A stretch of 64,000 nt of DNA from Psychrobacter cibarius (GTDB taxonomy: Bacteria > Pseudomonadota > Gammaproteobacteria > Pseudomonadales > Moraxellaceae), in assembly GCA_030686115.1 (NCBI GenBank), contig CP131612.1, forward strand, positions 744,001 to 808,000. Direction: 5' to 3'. The position numbers were made by a program, and so were the translations under genes. The notes beneath the pieces were generated by a model, which made no database searches, was not told the origin of the DNA, and was given only the letters and a program-made list of their open reading frames with translations. This document shows positions 3,316 to 41,720 of the stretch, one piece after another. How positions within the stretch are numbered: the first letter of the stretch is position 1; the number at the start of each line of letters is the position of its first letter.

Positions 3316-4389
3316 ATGCCAAATTCTACTGATAGCCGCTCAACTCAGACAGTCTCGCCAACGGATTATGCCAAATTCGACCCTGATACCATTCATGAGA
3401 AACTTGATGCGTCGTTAAGTCGTCCGCAGCTTAATAGCGATGGCAGTATTCGTCATTTTTTGGGGGTAGAAGGTCTTAATAAGGCGCAGTTGCAGGCTAT
3501 TATTGCCAAAGCAGAGACGTTTTTTGATGATAACGGACAGCTCATTAACCGTCCTGAGCTCGAAGGCTATACGGTAATGAATTTGTTTTTTGAACCGTCA
3601 ACGCGTACCCGTACGACCTTTGAAGTAGCCGAAAAGCGTCTCGGTGCCAATGTGCTCAATATCGATATCGAGCGCTCTAGTACCAAAAAAGGTGAAAGCT
3701 TGCGCGATACGCTGTGGAACCTACAAGCCATGACGGCAGATATCTTTGTGGTACGGCATTCAGCATCAGGTGCTGCCCATTTTATGGCAACAGAGGTGAC
3801 ACCCGATATTGCCATTATCAATGGCGGTGATGGCTGGCATGCGCATCCAACGCAAGGGATGCTCGACATGCTCACTATTCATCGTGAAGCACCGCGCCCA
3901 TTTGAGGAGCTGTCAGTGGCTATCGTTGGCGATATCAAGCATTCGCGAGTGGCGCGCTCAGATATCAGTGCACTACAAACCTTGGGTGTAAAAGACATCC
4001 GCGTCTGTGCGCCGCGTACCTTATTACCGAAAGGTATTGAGCGTTTTGGGGTACGAGTCTATGAAGATATGAATGACTGTGTCACGGACTGTGATGTCAT
4101 TATGGGATTAAGAATACAAAACGAACGTATCGGCTCGCCGCTGCTGGCATCATCGAGTGAATATTATAAACACTATGGTATTACACCAGAGCGCATGGCA
4201 TTGGCTAAGCCGGATGCGTTGGTCATGCATCCAGGGCCGATGAACCGCGGTGTTGAGATTGCATCAAGCGTTGCCGATGGCGACCAGTCAGTGATTTTAA
4301 AACAGGTGAATAACGGCATCGCTATTCGTATGGCAGTACTGTCGCTAGCTATGGAAGGTCAGCGCGCTCACCAAGCCGCGAGTAAATAA
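3316..4389 (+). CDS. pyrB: Aspartate carbamoyltransferase catalytic subunit
   Basis: A 357-residue enzyme of de novo pyrimidine synthesis, condensing carbamoyl phosphate with aspartate. The carbamoyl-phosphate loop [11 protein letters not shown] is at residues 93-103, and [10 protein letters not shown] begins at H305. It is slightly longer at the N-terminus than typical catalytic subunits (roughly 310-335 residues). The next gene is an inactive dihydroorotase homologue, the arrangement of the class A ATCases of Pseudomonas, where the two proteins form a dodecamer. No pyrR is upstream in this window. No pyrI-type regulatory subunit is adjacent. Confidence 0.96.
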
Positions 4390-4449
4390 TCCTCTGCCTC
4401 GCTGTTTTATATTTATTTATCCCATTTTATTGATACGGTAATAACGCTC

Positions 4450-6318: not shown

Positions 6319-7647
6319 TTATGGTTTTGCTGTACTTTTATCAGTGCGAATGCTTTTGGCGACTTTACCAATACTCAAACCTTGCACCAAGATAGAGAAT
6401 ATCACCACTGCATAAGTGAGTGCCAGCAAGATATCGCGTTCGGTTCCCAGCGGCAGCTGCAACACTAAGGCAACCGAAATACCACCACGTAATCCGCCCC
6501 ATGTCAGCACTTTCCATGCACCAGTCGGTAAATCGAGCTGACGATGAAAGGTTTTGGTCGTCATACCTACAACGATAAAACGCGCAAGTAGGGCAATGAC
6601 AATTGTCAAACCAGCGGCGATAAATAAATTACCCGAATACGCAATCATCACTACTTCTAAACCGATGAGTACGAATAAAATAGCATTGAGAATTTCATCG
6701 ATTAATTCCCAAAATAAATCAATATAATGCCGCGTTTTATCGCTCATCGCCAATGCTCGTCCGCGATTCCCAACCATCAACCCCATCATCACCATGGCGA
6801 GTGGTCCTGATAAATGCCAATGGCTGGCGAGTGCATAACCACCTATCACACCAGCAAGCGTTAACAACACTTCTTCTTGATAGCTATCGATACTTTTCAG
6901 CATGTAATACAGAATCGCCCCAAGTACTAAGCCAAAAATAATGCCGCCACCAGCTTCAACCGCTAGAGTATGCGCCACATAATTGGCGGTTGGGATATCA
7001 CCACTGGATAAAATCCCTAGCAGCAATACAAAGATGACAACGCCGATACCATCGTTAAATAACGACTCGCCTGCGATGACCGTTTCTATACTTTTTGGCG
7101 CGCCAGCCGATGAAAGGATGCCCATCACGGCAATGGGGTCGGTCGGTGATATTAGAGCACCGAATAGCAAACACCAAAGAAACGGCAAACCGAAACCAAG
7201 CAGCGGCAGCATAAAATAAAGCGCCGTGGCGATAAGCATCGCAGAGACGATGGTACCGACGCAAGCAAGGATGCCAATAGGCAGTTTATAACGTTTTAAA
7301 TCGCTGATATTGACGTGCAGCGCCCCTGCAAATAACAGCATAGAGAGCATGCCATCTAATAAGACTTCGGTAAAATCAAGCTGCTCTAACAAGCTTACTT
7401 CATAATCAATCAGCTGATCAAATCCCAAAAATCCCAAAAATATCGCGCCAATAGATAATAAAATGGAGATAACCATCACGCCAATCGTGGTCGGTAGACC
7501 AATAAAACGATGGTTAACGTAAGTTAATAGGGCTGTGATTGATAAGAATATCGCGCTGATTTCAAGTATGGTTAGGCTACTGGTAGGGGCCATGAAAAAA
7601 TTCTCAAGTGAGTTTAAAATTGTCATAAGCTTAGCGCTTACATACAC
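6319..7647 (-). CDS. CPA1-family Na+(K+)/H+ antiporter (NhaP-like)
   Basis: A 442-residue inner-membrane protein with about 12 hydrophobic segments. CPA1 hallmarks are 'GALISPTDPIAVMG', 'AGESLFNDGIGVVIF' (the Asn-Asp pair of electroneutral exchangers) and 'WGGLRGGISVALVLQLP'. It would exchange cytoplasmic Na+ or K+ for protons for pH and salt homeostasis, plausible for a halotolerant bacterium. No large cytoplasmic C-terminal domain is present. Alternative starts at ATG 7626 and 7593 exist; none has a clearly superior ribosome site, so the N-terminal 18 residues are uncertain. Confidence 0.9.
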   Translation of the reverse strand: MYVSAKLMTILNSLENFFMAPTSSLTILEISAIFLSITALLTYVNHRFIGLPTTIGVMVISILLSIGAIFLGFLGFDQLIDYEVSLLEQLDFTEVLLDGMLSMLLFAGALHVNISDLKRYKLPIGILACVGTIVSAMLIATALYFMLPLLGFGLPFLWCLLFGALISPTDPIAVMGILSSAGAPKSIETVIAGESLFNDGIGVVIFVLLLGILSSGDIPTANYVAHTLAVEAGGGIIFGLVLGAILYYMLKSIDSYQEEVLLTLAGVIGGYALASHWHLSGPLAMVMMGLMVGNRGRALAMSDKTRHYIDLFWELIDEILNAILFVLIGLEVVMIAYSGNLFIAAGLTIVIALLARFIVVGMTTKTFHRQLDLPTGAWKVLTWGGLRGGISVALVLQLPLGTERDILLALTYAVVIFSILVQGLSIGKVAKSIRTDKSTAKP

Positions 7648-7686: not shown

Positions 7687-9315
7687 TTATTTTGATTGCG
7701 TTTGTAATGCTTGGCGAATATGGGTGTCAAACGCGCTAACATAGTTAAAATACTGATGATGAGCATCGTTGCTAAGTATGAACTGTTGGGCTTGTTGGCA
7801 CATCGCGCTCAAGTCATCTATCAGCTCTTGATAGCTTAGGTTTTCTTCTCCTGCGCGCTCAATCATTTTTATCTCATGCAATAGGGTTTGCTGCTGTGCG
7901 TTATTTACGCGAGCATAACTTAGATTGACCATCGCCTGACATAGCGCTTTTAAGACCATCAAATCTGCTGCTGCATACCGACGTATCTCGCCTAGTGATG
8001 TATTGATAAAATCAGATATTTTGGGAGTATGAGTAACTATGGCTAATATAGCCAAGCGTCGCTGTTTAACTTCGGCTTTCGATGAATCATCGTTTTGTGC
8101 CGGTGTATAAAAATGATAGGGACTGGGCGGCTGACGACGCATCATAATACTTAAGCAACTGGTCAGTGATTGTACGCAGTTGACCGCTGTTTTTGGATCA
8201 TTGATACCTGGAGACAATGCTCGTACGGCGATTTCAGTCATTTGTCCCAAGCTATAAGCAATATCGTTAGAATGAGCCAGTCGTTGTTCGATACGTATAC
8301 AGCCTGCAAAGCGTTGCCAAAAAAGCCCGTCAGGGGCACGCGGTACAACAGCTAAAGATGGCGTCGCTGTTTTTTGTCGATTGTTTGGATGATCTGCTGG
8401 ACGCTGGTAAAAGTAGCCGATGACGTTTTTATCAGTGACATAATCACCAAGATTGATACGCATTTGCACCACGCCGCCATAGTCTTGTGTCAGTGTAATC
8501 AGTGACTCAAGGTAAAATTGTTGAACATAACCTGAGCTTGGTGGATAGATGGGCACCGCTGACCAATGATGAAACTGTTCAATGTCATGATGTTCTATAT
8601 CGCGTTGATGCTGAATATCGCAATGATCACGATACCAATAGTGAATATTATTAATCGCATCATTGCTGGCGTTTTGAATCACATGGGAAGCTTGAATGGC
8701 ATGTACCATATGCTGTACAAAGTACACCAGCAACAGCGCACATATAATTGCCATGATAATCGCAAAAGTCACTGCGAGCTGTGGCACACCAAAAGCCACG
8801 TCATATTTATGGATGGATTTTAACACCAATAAACTATAACTAAACGTGCCAATGAACGCCCCCAACACAAATTGATTGGGTGTATCGGTTAAAAAATTGC
8901 GCAACAGCCGTGGGCCAAATTGCGAAGAGGCCATCGACAGCACGGCGATTGTAATGGAAAAGGTTGTGCCTGCCACGCCCAGTACTGCGCCTGCGATGGC
9001 AGTCATGATGGCGCGCGCAGCATCGTCGTCACCGGTAAAAGCAAAGGTAATCTCTCTGACGGTTTCGCGGTCAAAGTGTTGATCGATAGTGACCAATAAA
9101 GGCGCTAGCAATATACCTGCAATGACGCACGCAGTCGGAATAAACCAATAAGAGCCAATAAGCTGCTGCCATAGGTTTCTTAGTCGATCAGGCATATCGG
9201 TCAGTGTCTGTAGCGACCATAACTGGGCGAACTGCTTTAGTCTGTGCGTTATTGTCAGCAATGCAGGGTTAAACCAGCCACTTTCAGGGTGTTTATTCAA
9301 TATTATATGCTCCAC
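7687..9315 (-). CDS. DUF2254 family membrane protein
   Basis: A 542-residue protein with an N-terminal membrane module of about four segments (around residues 55-215) and a long cytoplasmic C-terminal half. The conserved DUF2254 block 'AGVAGTTFSITIAVLSMASSQFGPRLLRNF' is split here by substitutions but easily recognised ('VAGTTFSITIAVLSMASSQ'). A second conserved stretch is 'EIAVRALSPGINDPKTAV'. No biochemical function is established for the family that I know of. It lies 39 bp downstream of the antiporter start on the same strand, so it is the upstream gene of a likely two-gene transcript. Confidence 0.82.
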   Translation of the reverse strand: MEHIILNKHPESGWFNPALLTITHRLKQFAQLWSLQTLTDMPDRLRNLWQQLIGSYWFIPTACVIAGILLAPLLVTIDQHFDRETVREITFAFTGDDDAARAIMTAIAGAVLGVAGTTFSITIAVLSMASSQFGPRLLRNFLTDTPNQFVLGAFIGTFSYSLLVLKSIHKYDVAFGVPQLAVTFAIIMAIICALLLVYFVQHMVHAIQASHVIQNASNDAINNIHYWYRDHCDIQHQRDIEHHDIEQFHHWSAVPIYPPSSGYVQQFYLESLITLTQDYGGVVQMRINLGDYVTDKNVIGYFYQRPADHPNNRQKTATPSLAVVPRAPDGLFWQRFAGCIRIEQRLAHSNDIAYSLGQMTEIAVRALSPGINDPKTAVNCVQSLTSCLSIMMRRQPPSPYHFYTPAQNDDSSKAEVKQRRLAILAIVTHTPKISDFINTSLGEIRRYAAADLMVLKALCQAMVNLSYARVNNAQQQTLLHEIKMIERAGEENLSYQELIDDLSAMCQQAQQFILSNDAHHQYFNYVSAFDTHIRQALQTQSK

Positions 9316-9484: not shown

Positions 9485-12400
9485 TTAATTGACTAGATTG
9501 TCAATCCAAGTGCTTATCGCAGTGCTTACTTTTGCTAGCACTGATGGCTCTTCTTTACTGTCCATACTTAATGAACGCGTTTGCATATCATCCGTCGATA
9601 CTGGCTGTTTTTGCAGACTATCTACGATTAACGGTAGATTATTACCAGTGGTTGCTAAGATAAAGCTTGGGTTTTTGGTTAACGTCGCCCACTTCTGATT
9701 CCAGCCACCACTACAATTGTAAGTAATTAAGCTTCCGCGATTATCTACTAAATTACCAGTACGCAAATCAAAGCATTTGCCACCTTGTTTGATTTGGTCA
9801 GTACCGTTCATCTCCCAAACTTGCGCTGGCGAGTCCAAGCTACAAGCACCCAAAACCACCCAAGAACCTTGTTCTGTTAAGCACTGATCTAATGCCATTT
9901 TGCTGTGAATTTTACCTTTAAGATCGTAAATCCACTGTTCAGAGTCGTCACCAGTACAGCCACTTGGGCCACTAATAAAGCTATTTAACTTACCACCTTC
10001 TAGAGTTTCAACTTTAAGGCAGTTGTTGCCATTACGGATAGTAGTCACATTATCTAAAGGTTTATCATCTTGTAGCTCTAAATCTACAACAAACTTTTGA
10101 AATTCGGTAAGTGCTTCAGGCTCTTTTTTGATTAAATCCGTACGATAGACATTGACCCAGCGGTTGAGACGATTTAGAGTTTCTTGCTGCTTCTCATAAC
10201 GCTCTAATGTTTGGAGTGCTAAAGGGCTAAGCTCATCACGATACTCTTTGTAAGAATCATATAATAACTGACCGTTGGCGTCTAAACTAATAGTCGAATG
10301 TTCTGCTTGAGCAAGAAGTTTCTGCTCTAAGATTGGCAATTCTATCTTTCTTAGTGCCGTATAGCCCTGTTCTTTACCAAAGGTAACCGCGGGTTTAATC
10401 GTATCATTATATTGACGAATATCAATGGTTGAGAGCTGTACTTGTGCTTCATTGGCTTTTTTACAGTATAAATCTACTTTTTTCGGATCTTCAGCGATGG
10501 CTAAATTGATATGGAATTTATTAGCATTACCATTCATTCGATTAGGAGCCAACGCAATATCATTAATCGTGTTATTACTATAAGTAACGCTTAACCAGCA
10601 GCTTGCTGATTCAAGTGAGTTATTCGGTGTCGGTAACTCAAAAACGTTGCCCCAGTTACCACGTGCTTCTGGATAAATAATACCCTTTTGCGCGACAGGG
10701 TCATAACCGCCTAAAATGGTAAAGACTGGCACGCCTTGTAAGCGTGGTTTTAAGTAATTACCGTCGGTACTGTTGTACCAAACGTTTTTAGAACCTTGCC
10801 ATACCTTAGGCTGGATGACTTCCATCTTTCTGAGATCGGCATTCCATTTCTTATAGCCAGTTGGTGAATCAGCGTCAAATACTGCTTTATCAAATGCTGG
10901 CTGGATCTTAATTTTTGTACTATAACCCGTATAGTGAGTATAGTTTGAATAAGCGCCACTCTGTGATCCACCAGACATCGCATCGCGACCATAGCCATAG
11001 GTGGCTAAGAAAAGAGGTTTACCAGTGAGGCCATCACCCTCGACCTGTCGTGGCCAGTCTAAGTTGCTGCGCATTTTGTTTCTGATGCCATTATAGCCCC
11101 AGCCACTATTGGAATGATGCTCGGCCCAAAAGAAATCGCCGTTCTGTTCACCAGGATAATGACCCAAGCCATAATGATGACCGATTTCGTGGCTGAACTC
11201 ATTACCTTGAGAGTCGATTAGGGTCAACATACCATTACCGCCGCTTAAGCCGTGGTTATATTCACCATTCTTATATTTACCGCGAGCGTGATGCGCATTG
11301 ACGTTCTGGGTCAATTGCGGTTGCTCTTGACTTTGCATTGAAGCACTGGTGACGCCCCAATTGGCTAAATTAATGCCAACACCAAAGGTTGATTTCGCGG
11401 TGTTTTCGCGCATATCACCAGCATAAACGCCAGCATCATTTGAGTCACTGACTGAATCATAAATAGTGCCATTGGCGACCATTACTCGTTCGAGCTTCAT
11501 GTCATCATAGCTAGCAACGGTCATTTGTGCTGCTGGAATGGTTTGGAAGTAGTCTGAACCCGCTCTTTCTGGATCGCGTAGCATATAATGACCCCAAGAT
11601 TGAGGTGCATCCGTTAACATGCCCAGACGGATATTGGTCAATACCAACTCACCAGGGGCGGCAAAATCTATGTTATCTTCTGACAATTCACCGCTACGAT
11701 TTTGGTCATCCACAATGCGAATTTTGAGACCACCTTGTACCTCATCCCAGTTGAGTTTGGTTGACCATGCGCGCTTACTGTAAGCAACGCGAGGACGTTG
11801 GTCAGTGTTAGTCTGATCCGTGTCTGGGATTTGAGTCGGATCGGCTAAATTGATAGTTCGTAATAAAACCCCGTCTTTGTAAATTTCAGCCGCTAATTTA
11901 TTAATATCACCCATTTCAAGCGTAGGCGTCACCAATAATAGCGCCTCTTTTTCTGCCGTCAGGCGCGGCATGTTTTTTGCTTCGTTACCCTGTGGATCAA
12001 CGGTATGATTCTGCCCAAACTGTATCATCGCTTGAAAATCGCCAACCAAGTCTGGACGAATAGCACGAATTTCTCCCGCTCTACCATCGTGGTCAAAAAA
12101 CCCTAATAAATAAAAATCAGCAATATCCTTTTTTGGTTCTGGATATTTAATAGGCGTACTTGGTTCAAGTGGCGTAGCAGGAATACTCGTTACTGGTGGT
12201 TTAACAGGCGTGCTAGGCTCAAGCGGCGTAGCAGGAATACTCGTTACCGGTGGTTTAACAGGCGTACTTGGCTCAAGCGGCGTAGCAGGAATACTCGTTA
12301 CTGGCGGCTTAATAGGCGTGCTTGGCCCAATTGGCGTAGCAGGAATACTCGTTGCTGGTGGCTTAATAGGCGTAGCTGGCACAAGTGGCGTTGCAGGAAT

Positions 12401-33521: not shown

Positions 33522-33722
33522 GTGGATTTTTGCTGATTCAGAATGCTAAAAAATAAAGTTGGTTTTAACTCCTTTTCGGAGTTCATTCTAACTATAAAAA
33601 TTATCATTTAAGACAGCAGAAAAACTCAAAGTTAATTCATTACGAACATAATTTTTAGCGATTTTGCCAGATTAGATGAGCCAAGTTTAGAAGCTTCTTT
33701 AAAGAGCTTCATAGCAAGATTA

Positions 33723-35260
<1,538 letters not shown>

Positions 35261-35290
35261 TAGATGGCATTCGGTCAGCAAGAATTCACA

Positions 35291-35308
35291 ACAAGTTGTT
35301 CTTTAGTT
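35291..35308 (+). other. 3' arm of the 16S precursor processing stem (boxA-like overlap)
   Basis: ACAAGTTGTTCTTTAGTT pairs perfectly with 33504-33521. The GTTCTTTA part also resembles the boxA antitermination element expected in this spacer. Confidence 0.65.
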
Positions 35309-35335
35309 TAAGCTTACGTTTTAACAAGCGTAATT

Positions 35336-35412
35336 GGGTCTGTAGCTCAGCTGGTTAGAGCACCGTGTTGATAACGCGGGGGTCAGTGGTTCAAGTCCAC
35401 TTAGACCCACCA
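35336..35412 (+). tRNA. tRNA-Ile (GAT)
   Basis: A 77-nt cloverleaf in the 16S-23S spacer. The acceptor stem GGGTCTG pairs with TAGACCC, the anticodon loop is TTGATAA (GAT), the T-loop is GGTTCAAGTCC, and CCA is encoded. Confidence 0.98.
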
Positions 35413-35421
35413 TTTTATAAT

Positions 35422-35497
35422 GGGGCCATAGCTCAGTTGGTAGAGCGCCTGCCTTGCACGCAGGAGGTCAACGGTTCGACTCCGTTTGGCTCCACCA
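35422..35497 (+). tRNA. tRNA-Ala (TGC)
   Basis: A 76-nt cloverleaf. GGGGCCA pairs with TGGCTCC, the anticodon loop is CTTGCAC (TGC), the T-loop is GGTTCGACTCC, and CCA is encoded. The Ile-Ala pair is standard in gammaproteobacterial rrn spacers. Confidence 0.98.
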
Positions 35498-35843
35498 CTA
35501 TAGACGAATAAGCTTTAAGTGCTAATAGTATAAATAGAAACAAGTGATTTTAACTGATTACTTCTTTCTGTTTTATACAGAATCTGTGACTCGACGAGAG
35601 CATAGAGACTATTTAAAAACATAGATATGAGTCTGGGTTAGGAAGAGCGTGTTCACGCGCACTTCTTAACCTTAGTAATCAACCTCTTAACGACATCAGT
35701 TGTTATCCCAGGGGTTGATTACTAAAAAAAGTAAAGAGAACTGAATCAAGCGTATAAACATAGGTGATATCGTTATCATAATTAGATCTTATGACACTTT
35801 GAAGTCAACACTTATTTATAAGTTAGACTACTTGGGGTTGTAT
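35498..35843 (+). other. tRNA-Ala to 23S spacer with nested processing stems
   Basis: Holds a local hairpin (AGTAATCAACC 35674-35684 with GGTTGATTACT 35713-35723) and three segments complementary to the 23S-5S spacer: 35623-35635 with 38869-38881, 35739-35750 with 38804-38815, and 35762-35772 with 38788-38798. They pair in nested order, as expected of a pre-23S stem. Confidence 0.7.
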
Positions 35844-38704
<2,861 letters not shown>

Positions 38705-38891
38705 ATACAACACCCAAGTGGTTTGTATGAAAGCTCTAATTAATCTATCTTGTATAAGCGAAAGCTTATAGAAACGAGAGAATATTTCGATATCACCTTT
38801 AACCTTGATTCAGTTAGGTTACTGTTGGTCGACTAAAAAGTAACATTTGAAGTCAATAATAACAACATCAGACTCATATCTAACCCCCTTT

Positions 38892-39005
38892 GCTGACGAC
38901 AATAGCATGATGGCACCACCTGATCCCTTCCCGAACTCAGAAGTGAAACATCATTGCGCCAATGGTAGTGTGGGTTCGCCCATGTGAGAGTAGGTCATCG
39001 TCAGC
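38892..39005 (+). rRNA. rrf: 5S ribosomal RNA
   Basis: About 114 nt. The ends GCTGACGA and TCGTCAGC pair as helix I. The internal CCGAACTCAGAAGTGAAAC segment is the 5S hallmark. It is the last gene of the rrn operon. Confidence 0.95.
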
Positions 39006-39020
39006 TCTCTATTCCTGATT

Positions 39021-39057
39021 ATCCCCCGACTAGTTATCTAGGCGGGGGATTTTTTTG
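39021..39057 (+). terminator. rrn operon terminator
   Basis: An ATCCCCCG / CGGGGGAT-type stem with a 10-14 base loop and a T7 run, 16 bp after 5S. Confidence 0.93.
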
Positions 39058-39194
39058 CTTAAAATGATTATAGTAAGTAAATAATAAATATTATTTATAT
39101 TGTATTACTAATTTGATCTATCAAAACTGGTAGTATAGATATTAATTTCTAAATTATTTATCTTTGATCAAAACTAATTCTATAGGATGTGAAG

Positions 39195-41270
39195 ATGACA
39201 AGAAGAACAGGTGGAGGAGCAGCTACGAATAGTGGAATTGACTTTCAACAACGAGTCGCTGCATTTTTTGTTTTAGCGATGGGATTAGATTTAGACTGCT
39301 CTAGTATTTTAGAACGCGATGATAAAACGAAAATATGCAAAGTAGCATTTGAAACAGAGGATGCTGTTGATGATATTGTTATCACTCACGAAAGTTCTAA
39401 AACATATCTGCAAGTTAAAAGGAAACTATCATTCTCTGAAAAAGTGGATTCTGAATTTTATAAAACTATTGATCAGTTTGTTAGACAATATTATGCCTCT
39501 CAAAATAAAAATGATTGTTATGCTATAGTTACATCAAGTGATTCTTCCAGAACAATACTTTCAGAGCTAAAAAAAATTACAACATCAGAAAGACTTAATA
39601 ATGAAGCTTCTACTGACAACCCATTATCTATATCTGAAAAATCAACATATCAAAGTTTTTTAAATTGTATTAAGACATCATTAAAACAAAACAAGTTGTT
39701 AAATGATACTAAAGTCATTCAACATTTGATAAGTCGTATATATGTAATTGATATAGCTATCGAAAATAATGGAATATATGAGAAATCTTTTTTGGCCTCA
39801 ATTTCAAGTCGATTATGTACAACTCCTAAACTACTCTGGGGACATATAATATCAAAGACTTTAGATTGGTCTAAAAATAGACAGTCAATTGATATTGATG
39901 GAATAAATTCTATTTTAAATAATTTTATTAGTAATGGACTTTTTGATAATGAAATAGATAAATACGACGAAACTTTGTTCAGTGTAGAATTTGATCCGGA
40001 TAAATACAATATTTGTTCAGGAAGAGAAGTGGTAATAGTAGATTCTTTCCTACCTGAGTTTGACATCGCTTTACTAGAATTGTATAGGTTTGATGACAAC
40101 GGTGAATTTAGAATTAAATTTTATGATCATGAACTTGAAATGAGTGATGGTTCTAGGCACAATTTGTATGGACGATTTTCAACACTTTCGGGAGCAGTAA
40201 GATTTATCACTGAGAACGAATGGATTCATGAAAAGAAGATGGTCATCTCAGAGTTAAATGATGATATTAATTTTGACTCGAGTACTATAGCAATTGTATA
40301 TTCAGAGAAAGTGCGGCAAAAAGTATTAAATAATAGGGAAATTTCAAAGTGTATTCATTGCCAAGGTGGACTTTCTAGTAGTTCAATGTTGATTGAGGTT
40401 TCAGAAGTAGGATTACCTTTTGACACAGGTATGATTCACAAAAGATGTCTTAGGGTATCTGATAGAGTTCTAGGAACTTCTAGTAACCCTGGTTTTGATG
40501 AACATCCTGAGTTACAAGATTTTGATTACCAAAAATGGTTTCTTAGCCTTGATAAGGGTCAAGCCGTATGGATTGGTTCCTCTAAGTTCAGTCAACAAGT
40601 GAAAAATGTATTGTGGAATTCTAATTCTGGATCTACTAAAGACGGTCAGCTTTGTATTAAGGCTATTTTAAGTAATGGAGATTATCAGTATGTTCAAGAA
40701 CGAGGGCGTGTTGGACGCTATAACGCTGAAAGAGCAAAGTTCGAATGTAAACAACTCAATAATTGGATAGAAGATTCAAAAGATAAAGGTAATCCTATTT
40801 GTTATTCGTTAGATGGTCAAACCCAAGGAATGTATAATGATATTCAAAATAGCTCTAGTCAACCCGTAGAATTAATTGAATGTGTAAAATTTGAAGTTAC
40901 TCAATATACTCGAGGTATATCGAAACTTAACGATAAAATAAAGAATTTTTATGCACCTTTAATATCTTTGGTGAATAAAGAAAGTAGCAACCCTTTATTA
41001 GTAGATAATACGGCGTTTCTTATTTCTAGTCCAATGGAATTAAAGCTTTACCTAAAAAACTGGGTAACTATTGGCTTTTCCTATAGTTTGTATAAACTTG
41101 ATATAATTGATTCAGATGAATGTTTCGACAAGTTTATGAGGTGGGCTAATGAAAAAGAGATTAATGTCTTAATAGATCCTTTTTTTGATGAATCAGGACA
41201 ATTATCGAAAGGAGTGGTTATGCAAGATATGGAGTCTATTGAGAAAGGACAAGATTTAAAATCCTTTTAA
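39195..41270 (+). CDS. AT-rich orphan gene with nuclease-like (PD-(D/E)xK, Cap4/DUF4297-style) N-terminus; candidate defence protein
   Basis: A 691-residue protein I do not recognise as a named family. Its start, 'TGGGAATNSGIDFQQRVAAFF', resembles the opening helix of the dsDNA endonuclease domains found in anti-phage proteins. D59-D60 ('VDDIVI') followed by Q73-V-K75 ('YLQVKRK') fits a PD-(D/E)xK active site with Q in place of E. The centre has C386-x2-C389 and H415-x2-C418, a possible zinc knuckle beside 'GMIHKRCLRVSDRVLG'. The C-terminal 250 residues match nothing I know. Base composition is far more AT-rich than neighbours, with many ATA/AGA/TTA codons, suggesting transfer. AGGA precedes ATG 39195. 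It stands alone between the rrn terminator and an OsmC gene. Confidence 0.5.
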   Translation: MTRRTGGGAATNSGIDFQQRVAAFFVLAMGLDLDCSSILERDDKTKICKVAFETEDAVDDIVITHESSKTYLQVKRKLSFSEKVDSEFYKTIDQFVRQYYASQNKNDCYAIVTSSDSSRTILSELKKITTSERLNNEASTDNPLSISEKSTYQSFLNCIKTSLKQNKLLNDTKVIQHLISRIYVIDIAIENNGIYEKSFLASISSRLCTTPKLLWGHIISKTLDWSKNRQSIDIDGINSILNNFISNGLFDNEIDKYDETLFSVEFDPDKYNICSGREVVIVDSFLPEFDIALLELYRFDDNGEFRIKFYDHELEMSDGSRHNLYGRFSTLSGAVRFITENEWIHEKKMVISELNDDINFDSSTIAIVYSEKVRQKVLNNREISKCIHCQGGLSSSSMLIEVSEVGLPFDTGMIHKRCLRVSDRVLGTSSNPGFDEHPELQDFDYQKWFLSLDKGQAVWIGSSKFSQQVKNVLWNSNSGSTKDGQLCIKAILSNGDYQYVQERGRVGRYNAERAKFECKQLNNWIEDSKDKGNPICYSLDGQTQGMYNDIQNSSSQPVELIECVKFEVTQYTRGISKLNDKIKNFYAPLISLVNKESSNPLLVDNTAFLISSPMELKLYLKNWVTIGFSYSLYKLDIIDSDECFDKFMRWANEKEINVLIDPFFDESGQLSKGVVMQDMESIEKGQDLKSF

Positions 41271-41309
41271 AAAACGGTAACCCGACAACGATAAGTATTA
41301 AGGAAAATA

Positions 41310-41720
41310 ATGACAACCTCAAAAGTAACTTACCAAGGTGATCTACGTACTACAGCGATACACCTACAATCAAATAACGAGATTATCACTGATGCACCAG
41401 TTGATAATCAAGGTAAGGGCGAGGCGTTTTCACCGACTGATTTATTGGCGACGAGCTTAGCCAGTTGTATGCTGACGATTATTGGTATTAAAGCTCGCGA
41501 TATGAATATCGATATTGCAGGCACTACTGCTGAAGTGACCAAAGTAATGGCGGCTGACCCAAGACGAGTTAGTGAAGTACATGTTGCTATCACCTTTAAT
41601 AAACAGCTAGATGAGAAGACGCAAAAAATATTCTATAACACTGCGCTGACTTGTCCGGTTGCGAAAAGCATCCATCCTGATATCATTCAGAAAGTAACTA
41701 TTGATTCTAAAAGCTATTAA
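41310..41720 (+). CDS. OsmC-family peroxide reductase
   Basis: A 136-residue OsmC/Ohr-fold protein. The two redox cysteines are C53 in 'SLASCMLTIIGI' and C115 in 'ALTCPVAKSIHP'. It is closest in look to the YhfA/OsmC subgroup rather than Ohr. Such proteins reduce organic hydroperoxides with dithiols. AAGGA precedes the ATG. It is followed after 68 bp by a flavodoxin-fold gene on the same strand. Confidence 0.88.
   Translation: MTTSKVTYQGDLRTTAIHLQSNNEIITDAPVDNQGKGEAFSPTDLLATSLASCMLTIIGIKARDMNIDIAGTTAEVTKVMAADPRRVSEVHVAITFNKQLDEKTQKIFYNTALTCPVAKSIHPDIIQKVTIDSKSY

Follow-up and report, generated by a model that had tools for sequence, protein, structure and literature searches.

What is a lone, AT-rich gene doing directly behind a ribosomal RNA (rRNA) operon? 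We addressed this question for the gene at 39195..41270 of a 64,000-nucleotide stretch of the Psychrobacter cibarius genome (contig CP131612.1, positions 744,001 to 808,000), hereafter the window. A preliminary description, made from the letters of the stretch, had proposed a carried-in single-gene defence system with a nuclease-like N terminus, an internal zinc motif and a C-terminal sensor. The protein has two parts, a predicted N-terminal nuclease and a conserved C-terminal half, and we consider it, with a probability of roughly 0.65, to be a horizontally acquired single-protein sensor–effector system directed against phages (or mobile elements). The gene and its parts are as follows:

39195..41270, + strand: the gene, encoding a 691-amino-acid protein (P0001) from an ATG start, with an alternative GTG start at 39189 (open reading frame (ORF) call, homologue search, alignment A1)
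39201..39941, + strand: predicted Cap4-type PD-(D/E)xK nuclease domain, residues 3–249
39351..39419, + strand: predicted catalytic motif E53, D59–D60, Q73-x-K75, from conservation in the family
39933..40004, + strand: linker between the halves, residues 247–270, model confidence (pLDDT) under 50
40017..41267, + strand: C-terminal half, the putative sensor, residues 275–691, confidently folded in the model
40350..40448, + strand: CxxC-x25-HxxC motif, C386, C389, H415 and C418

A predicted nuclease and a conserved C-terminal half

A search of 5.8 billion proteins, with scoring confined to the 7997 candidates that had the most words in common, yielded 69 homologues at E ≤ 0.001, ranging from 396 to 797 amino acids and lacking precomputed Pfam domains; 40 of them entered alignment A1. 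Two further searches with the C-terminal half, which reach proteins of about 380–1209 and 229–730 amino acids and miss larger fusions, enlarged the family set to 87, our own protein included.

Computation identifies residues 3–249 as a predicted Cap4-type PD-(D/E)xK nuclease with a complete D/Q/K triad. By fold, the N-terminal model matched the nucleases of five defence proteins (Avs3, LmuA, HerA-DUF, Cap4 and Hachiman), and it is this predicted structure together with the conserved triad that identifies the effector. E53, D59, D60, Q73 and K75 are intact in 82 of the 87 family proteins; in the other five (P0019, P0035, P0036, P0037 and P0070) all or most of the N-terminal motif region is missing. 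The spacing of D60, Q73 and K75 (13 + 2) is identical to that of D45/Q58/K60 in AbpA and D40/Q53/K55 in the DUF4297 protein of HerA–DUF4297, catalytic residues whose mutation matters according to the accessible parts of PMC10732053 and PMC11291478, respectively. Every motif named in the preliminary description is present in the sequence. That description had likened the N terminus to PD-(D/E)xK domains of the Cap4/DUF4297/Avs kind, a comparison that the model and the QxK spacing of two experimentally mutated relatives bear out.

At the level of profiles, Pfam PF14130 (Cap4_nuclease) did not match the gene's protein over the gathering cut-off or even at E values up to 10, whereas 8 of 40 family proteins matched it at E < 1 (best 1.6e-4). 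The N-terminal 200 residues match PADLOC PDC-M54A, a candidate defence protein whose profiles span 1621 and 1657 positions, with an E value of 2.1e-25, and this match ends before the second half. Related N-terminal nucleases also head two NLR-like proteins, an NB-ARC–WD40 protein at locus L036 (9995–14185) and a NACHT–HEAT protein at locus L040 (9995–13630); the domain therefore behaves like an effector that can be transferred.

The C-terminal half accompanies the Cap4-type nuclease in the full-length matches found: queries with this half returned nuclease-bearing proteins as well as P0019, P0036, P0037 and P0070, four records in which the nuclease region is not complete. The spacing of its CxxC and HxxC pairs was as first described, with C389 and H415 lying 26 residues apart. 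C386, C389, H415 and C418, which probably form a zinc site, are intact in 85 of the 87 family proteins, P0041 and P0070 being incomplete there; among 31 sequences (30 loci and P0001), L015 is the single case in which two of the four ligands are lost. The model of residues 275–691 found no match in the PDB at a Foldseek E value of 0.001, and the matches listed for it contained no SAVED or CARF chain, although these searches are unable to exclude such a domain. Separately, a subgroup of proteins of about 790 amino acids (P0005, P0006, P0015 and others) carries an extra Cys-rich C-terminal domain of about 100 residues with a CxCxGC-type motif (A1 columns about 755–875), a tail that is missing from the gene's own protein.

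Comparison with known systems sets this architecture apart from each of its nearest counterparts. Cap4 is an effector of the cyclic-oligonucleotide-based anti-phage signalling system (CBASS) that combines a PF14130 nuclease with a SAVED domain. By contrast, the C-terminal half here was not recognised as SAVED among the matches listed, exclusion being beyond the searches, and no CD-NTase gene of the CBASS kind adjoins the gene, whose neighbours are rRNA genes and osmC. The Cap4 triad also differs, being D50/E67/K69 in the accessible part of PMC10732053, compared with D60/Q73/K75 here. Avs3 and other STAND proteins join a Cap4-type nuclease to a P-loop NTPase, whereas Pfam at E values up to 10 detected no NTPase domain in our protein, which has 691 residues against 2028 in the Avs3 chain 8dgc. 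LmuA/DdmA of Lamassu and DdmABC works with an SMC-like protein (PMC12409362, in the part accessible), and HerA–DUF4297 and AbpA, despite their identical triad spacing, act with an ATPase or helicase partner, unlike the lone gene here. Inspection by eye of the ORFs between 36000 and 44500 revealed neither an SMC or ABC ATPase partner (as in Lamassu/ABC-3C) nor a helicase partner (as in Hachiman/AbpAB) adjoining the gene.

The nuclease, and the arrangement of a Cap4-type effector with a recognition part, have been described before. What appears to be new, with respect to the databases and the literature searched, is the second half and its combination with the nuclease, which had no whole-protein match in PADLOC 2.0.0, Pfam or NCBIfam; the family was not recognised among the titles listed by literature searches, some of them aimed at hotspots or integrons, outside which lay supplementary files and most subscription journals, so that a description elsewhere is possible. 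A known effector nuclease joined to a conserved 417-residue half without a solved-fold match would offer a one-gene handle on nuclease switching.

Distribution, selection and genomic neighbours

The family appears to be taxonomically broad but rare, and the gene is patchy in its distribution and probably horizontally acquired. Its nearest relatives share 76–87% identity; the nearest with a named organism come from Rheinheimera (68%) and Onishia (67%), and distant relatives (about 27–33%) occur in Streptomyces, Metabacillus, Pedobacter and others. No full-length copy was found in 104 other genomes of the genus, nor, at E 1e-30, in 368 other genomes of the class. Within the window, the gene was compared with 40 mechanically called ORFs of at least 150 amino acids outside the rRNA genes: its GC content is 0.316 against 0.443 ± 0.033 (next-lowest 0.344), its GC content at third codon positions (GC3) is 0.213 against 0.411 ± 0.042 (next-lowest 0.297), and its codon-usage distance is the largest among the 41 ORFs. 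The claim that composition and codon use are unlike those of all neighbours thus held on every measure, and the view of the gene as an acquisition, as opposed to a stable occupant of this site, agrees with its absence from the 104 genomes and with the other cargo that occupies the same interval in relatives. Because the ratio of non-synonymous to synonymous substitution rates (dN/dS) is about 0.21 (L011/L012), 0.16 (L005/L007) and 0.09 (the gene against L004, with dS saturated), we conclude that the protein is kept by selection.

At 37 loci from other genomes, 656 ORFs of at least 70 amino acids were called, 41 of which are pieces of the family itself; no other ORF cluster occurs in more than 3 of the 37 loci. 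This lack of a recurrent partner is what the proposed single-gene system predicts. Locus-sequence and neighbour comparisons used 30 of these loci (L008, L019, L032, L035, L036, L038 and L040 being set aside), and neighbour tallies covered 117 of their 177 neighbour ORFs. At L033 (Cytobacillus), what looks like a Shango system follows directly downstream, with ORFs that match SngA (6.4e-21, partial profile), SngB (2.8e-165) and SngC (2.9e-203); upstream lies an ORF similar to NsnB/AriA ATPases. For six of 10 chosen neighbour ORFs, all six from loci other than L033, PADLOC gave no match at E 1e-20. Across the 117 neighbours, tallied without assignment to loci, other PADLOC families, a Pfam BrxC_BrxD match and transposases were present.

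A 2165-bp block, 97.1% identical, is common to L011 (Rhodocyclus tenuis, 9950–12113) and L012 (a Thauera metagenome-assembled genome, 4389–6552). In L012, where attC-like sites lie at 4316–4396, 6485–6551 and 7871–7951, the block runs from the last bases of one such site to the next, and because it is bounded in this way, one family member is an integron cassette in two genera (one represented by the metagenome-assembled genome). The family member is the only gene of its cassette in L012. An integron integrase, IntI, scored above the TIGR02249 cut-off there and its position fits the ORF at 445–1443, whereas the L011 integrase carries a stop; at both loci the contigs are numbered and the placing of the integrase rests on matching coordinates. 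An attC-type sequence can also be seen where the L011 copy ends, although the attC scan did not list it. Integron cassettes with anti-phage activity have reportedly been described by Darracq et al. and Kieffer et al. (cited in PMC13092281 and PMC12409362), and one family member is likewise a single-gene cassette; by contrast, a scan of about 350 bases to the left and right of the gene's own copy found no attC-like hairpin above threshold.

Proposed function and its rivals

We suggest that the C-terminal half would act as the sensor by recognizing an infection cue, either a phage protein or a nucleic-acid structure. By analogy with Avs3, LmuA and DUF4297, the cue could then cause the nuclease domains to assemble into active dimers or tetramers. 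Degradation of double-stranded DNA by the assembled nuclease would halt the phage and would probably kill the infected cell as well. The sensor role and the defence phenotype are inferred; the reading as a whole draws support from the five nuclease fold matches, the conserved triad, the L036 and L040 fusions, the nuclease-bearing proteins returned by queries with the C-terminal half, the absence of a recurrent partner, the Sng genes at L033, the L012 cassette, the dN/dS values and the cargo of the hotspot described below. The overall interpretation put forward in the preliminary description agreed with our results wherever it could be computed, namely in the nuclease model, the QxK spacing, the patchy presence and the lack of a partner. 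A wider proposal is that the proteins constitute an undescribed, broad-but-rare stand-alone immune family in which a Cap4-type nuclease works under a new zinc-bearing sensor fold, moving by way of integron cassettes in certain lineages but residing, in this genus, at an integrase-free rrn–osmC exchange site, whose flanks, the near-invariant rRNA genes and a conserved gene, would be homology arms for swapping defence genes by ordinary recombination; this remains tentative, and we put it at slightly below even odds.

The same architecture might instead belong to a restriction-like enzyme of type IV style, in which the C-terminal half directly recognises phage DNA that is modified or unusual and the Cap4-type domain then cleaves this DNA, without a killing response. 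We regard this as unlikely, since no known modified-base reader is among the matches listed for the C-terminal model, a weak negative, and since DUF4297–HerA, according to the accessible parts of PMC11291478, degrades both host and phage DNA after infection and does not act by reading modification. Metabolic genes also occur in the hotspot, as could be expected if the gene encoded a nuclease for DNA repair or a toxin, or were carried along with no function, but the patchy distribution, the purifying selection and an effector domain that also occurs in NLR-like proteins make such a non-defence role quite improbable. The least probable explanation, in our estimate, is that the protein serves as the effector in a signalling or multi-gene system with its remaining components encoded at other places in the genome, in the style of CBASS Cap4, Lamassu LmuA or HerA–DUF4297. 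Structural relatives of the nuclease do work together with a signal nucleotide, with an SMC protein or with a helicase/ATPase (accessible parts of PMC11291478, PMC10732053 and PMC12409362); against this, the 37 loci offer no common neighbour, the neighbours in the window are rRNA genes and osmC, and the gene stands alone in one integron cassette.

The rrn–osmC interval

The gene fills the interval between two fixed borders, 39 bases separating its end from the right-hand one:

33722..39006, + strand: rRNA operon, left border of the hotspot (Rfam and ARAGORN)
39021..39056, + strand: rrn terminator-like hairpin followed by a T-run, read by eye
39112..39185, + strand: upstream region with dyads in an imperfect 19-bp direct repeat
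41310..41720, + strand: osmC-like gene, right border of the hotspot, with a match in 99 of 105 same-genus genomes, our own included

For the last of these we use the putative name osmC, taken from the preliminary description. The operon comprises 16S (33722–35260), tRNA-Ile, tRNA-Ala, 23S (35844–38706) and 5S (38892–39006) genes.

Within the genus, the interval from 5S to osmC is a hotspot whose cargo varies. We surveyed 41 intervals bounded by both genes: 20 of 20 from a first fetch and 16 of 20 from a second, the 40 stretches having been chosen for an osmC inside the contig; four draft loci, whose choice by a 5S inside a 1.5-kb flank favours short intervals; and our own window (39007–41309). 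The loci were L053, L057, L059, L064, L071–L090 and L100–L119, with the exception of L102 and L110 (no 5S within 14 kb of osmC) and L108 and L116 (which ended too early). Three of the 41 are nearly empty (L059, 152 bases; L064, 150; L100, 186) and 38 are filled, spanning 883–5764 bases; for comparison, the gap between the osmC match and that of the following gene is 14–79 bases in 20 genomes. The intervals hold 91 mechanically called ORFs of at least 100 amino acids, our gene included, which form 58 clusters, 41 of them confined to a single genome.

Twenty hand-picked cargo proteins were compared with PADLOC, 10 at E 1e-3 and 10 at E 1e-5, and nine matched. The six at E 1e-3 were in L072 (OLD-like), L073, L074 (weakly DrmA), L084 (DrmC-like), L086 (NsnA-like) and L090 (FRG-type PDC-S15); the three at E 1e-5 were in L057 (TIR), L089 (LmuB-like) and L071 (DEDDh). 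Pfam matches included HEPN-RES with RES in L080, HNH in L086, YfbU in L090 and a borderline Mrr_cat in L078, as well as GmrSD_N, Mrr_cat, PLDc_2 and metabolic families without assignment to single proteins. This survey of the same locus in relatives, proposed beforehand, thus found varying cargo, some of it defence-like, and it is our impression that defence genes are enriched there. The interval narrows the choice to a limited number of small candidates, clonable singly, and suggests how defence genes may be exchanged without a recognisable mobile element. As a separate observation, a protein of about 575 amino acids recurs in five intervals (L083, L085, L088, L105 and L106); its L083 copy had no Pfam or PADLOC match.

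The hairpin at 39021–39056 was not reported by a terminator consensus scan; in relatives the cargo likewise lies behind such a hairpin (25 interval starts, read by eye). The dyads, TTTGATctATCAAA at 39112–39125 and TTTGATCAAA at 39163–39172, both fall within the direct repeat; a search of this region gave 1 match against 0.11 expected, and the region may possibly be an operator; by eye, the dyads were not seen upstream of 11 homologues. Elsewhere in the genome, four rrn operons stand in tandem with their 5S genes about 6.1 kb apart (C1, about 3302–3321 kb; L128 and L126), and two AT-rich ORFs (GC content 0.33–0.35) follow the last of the four copies.
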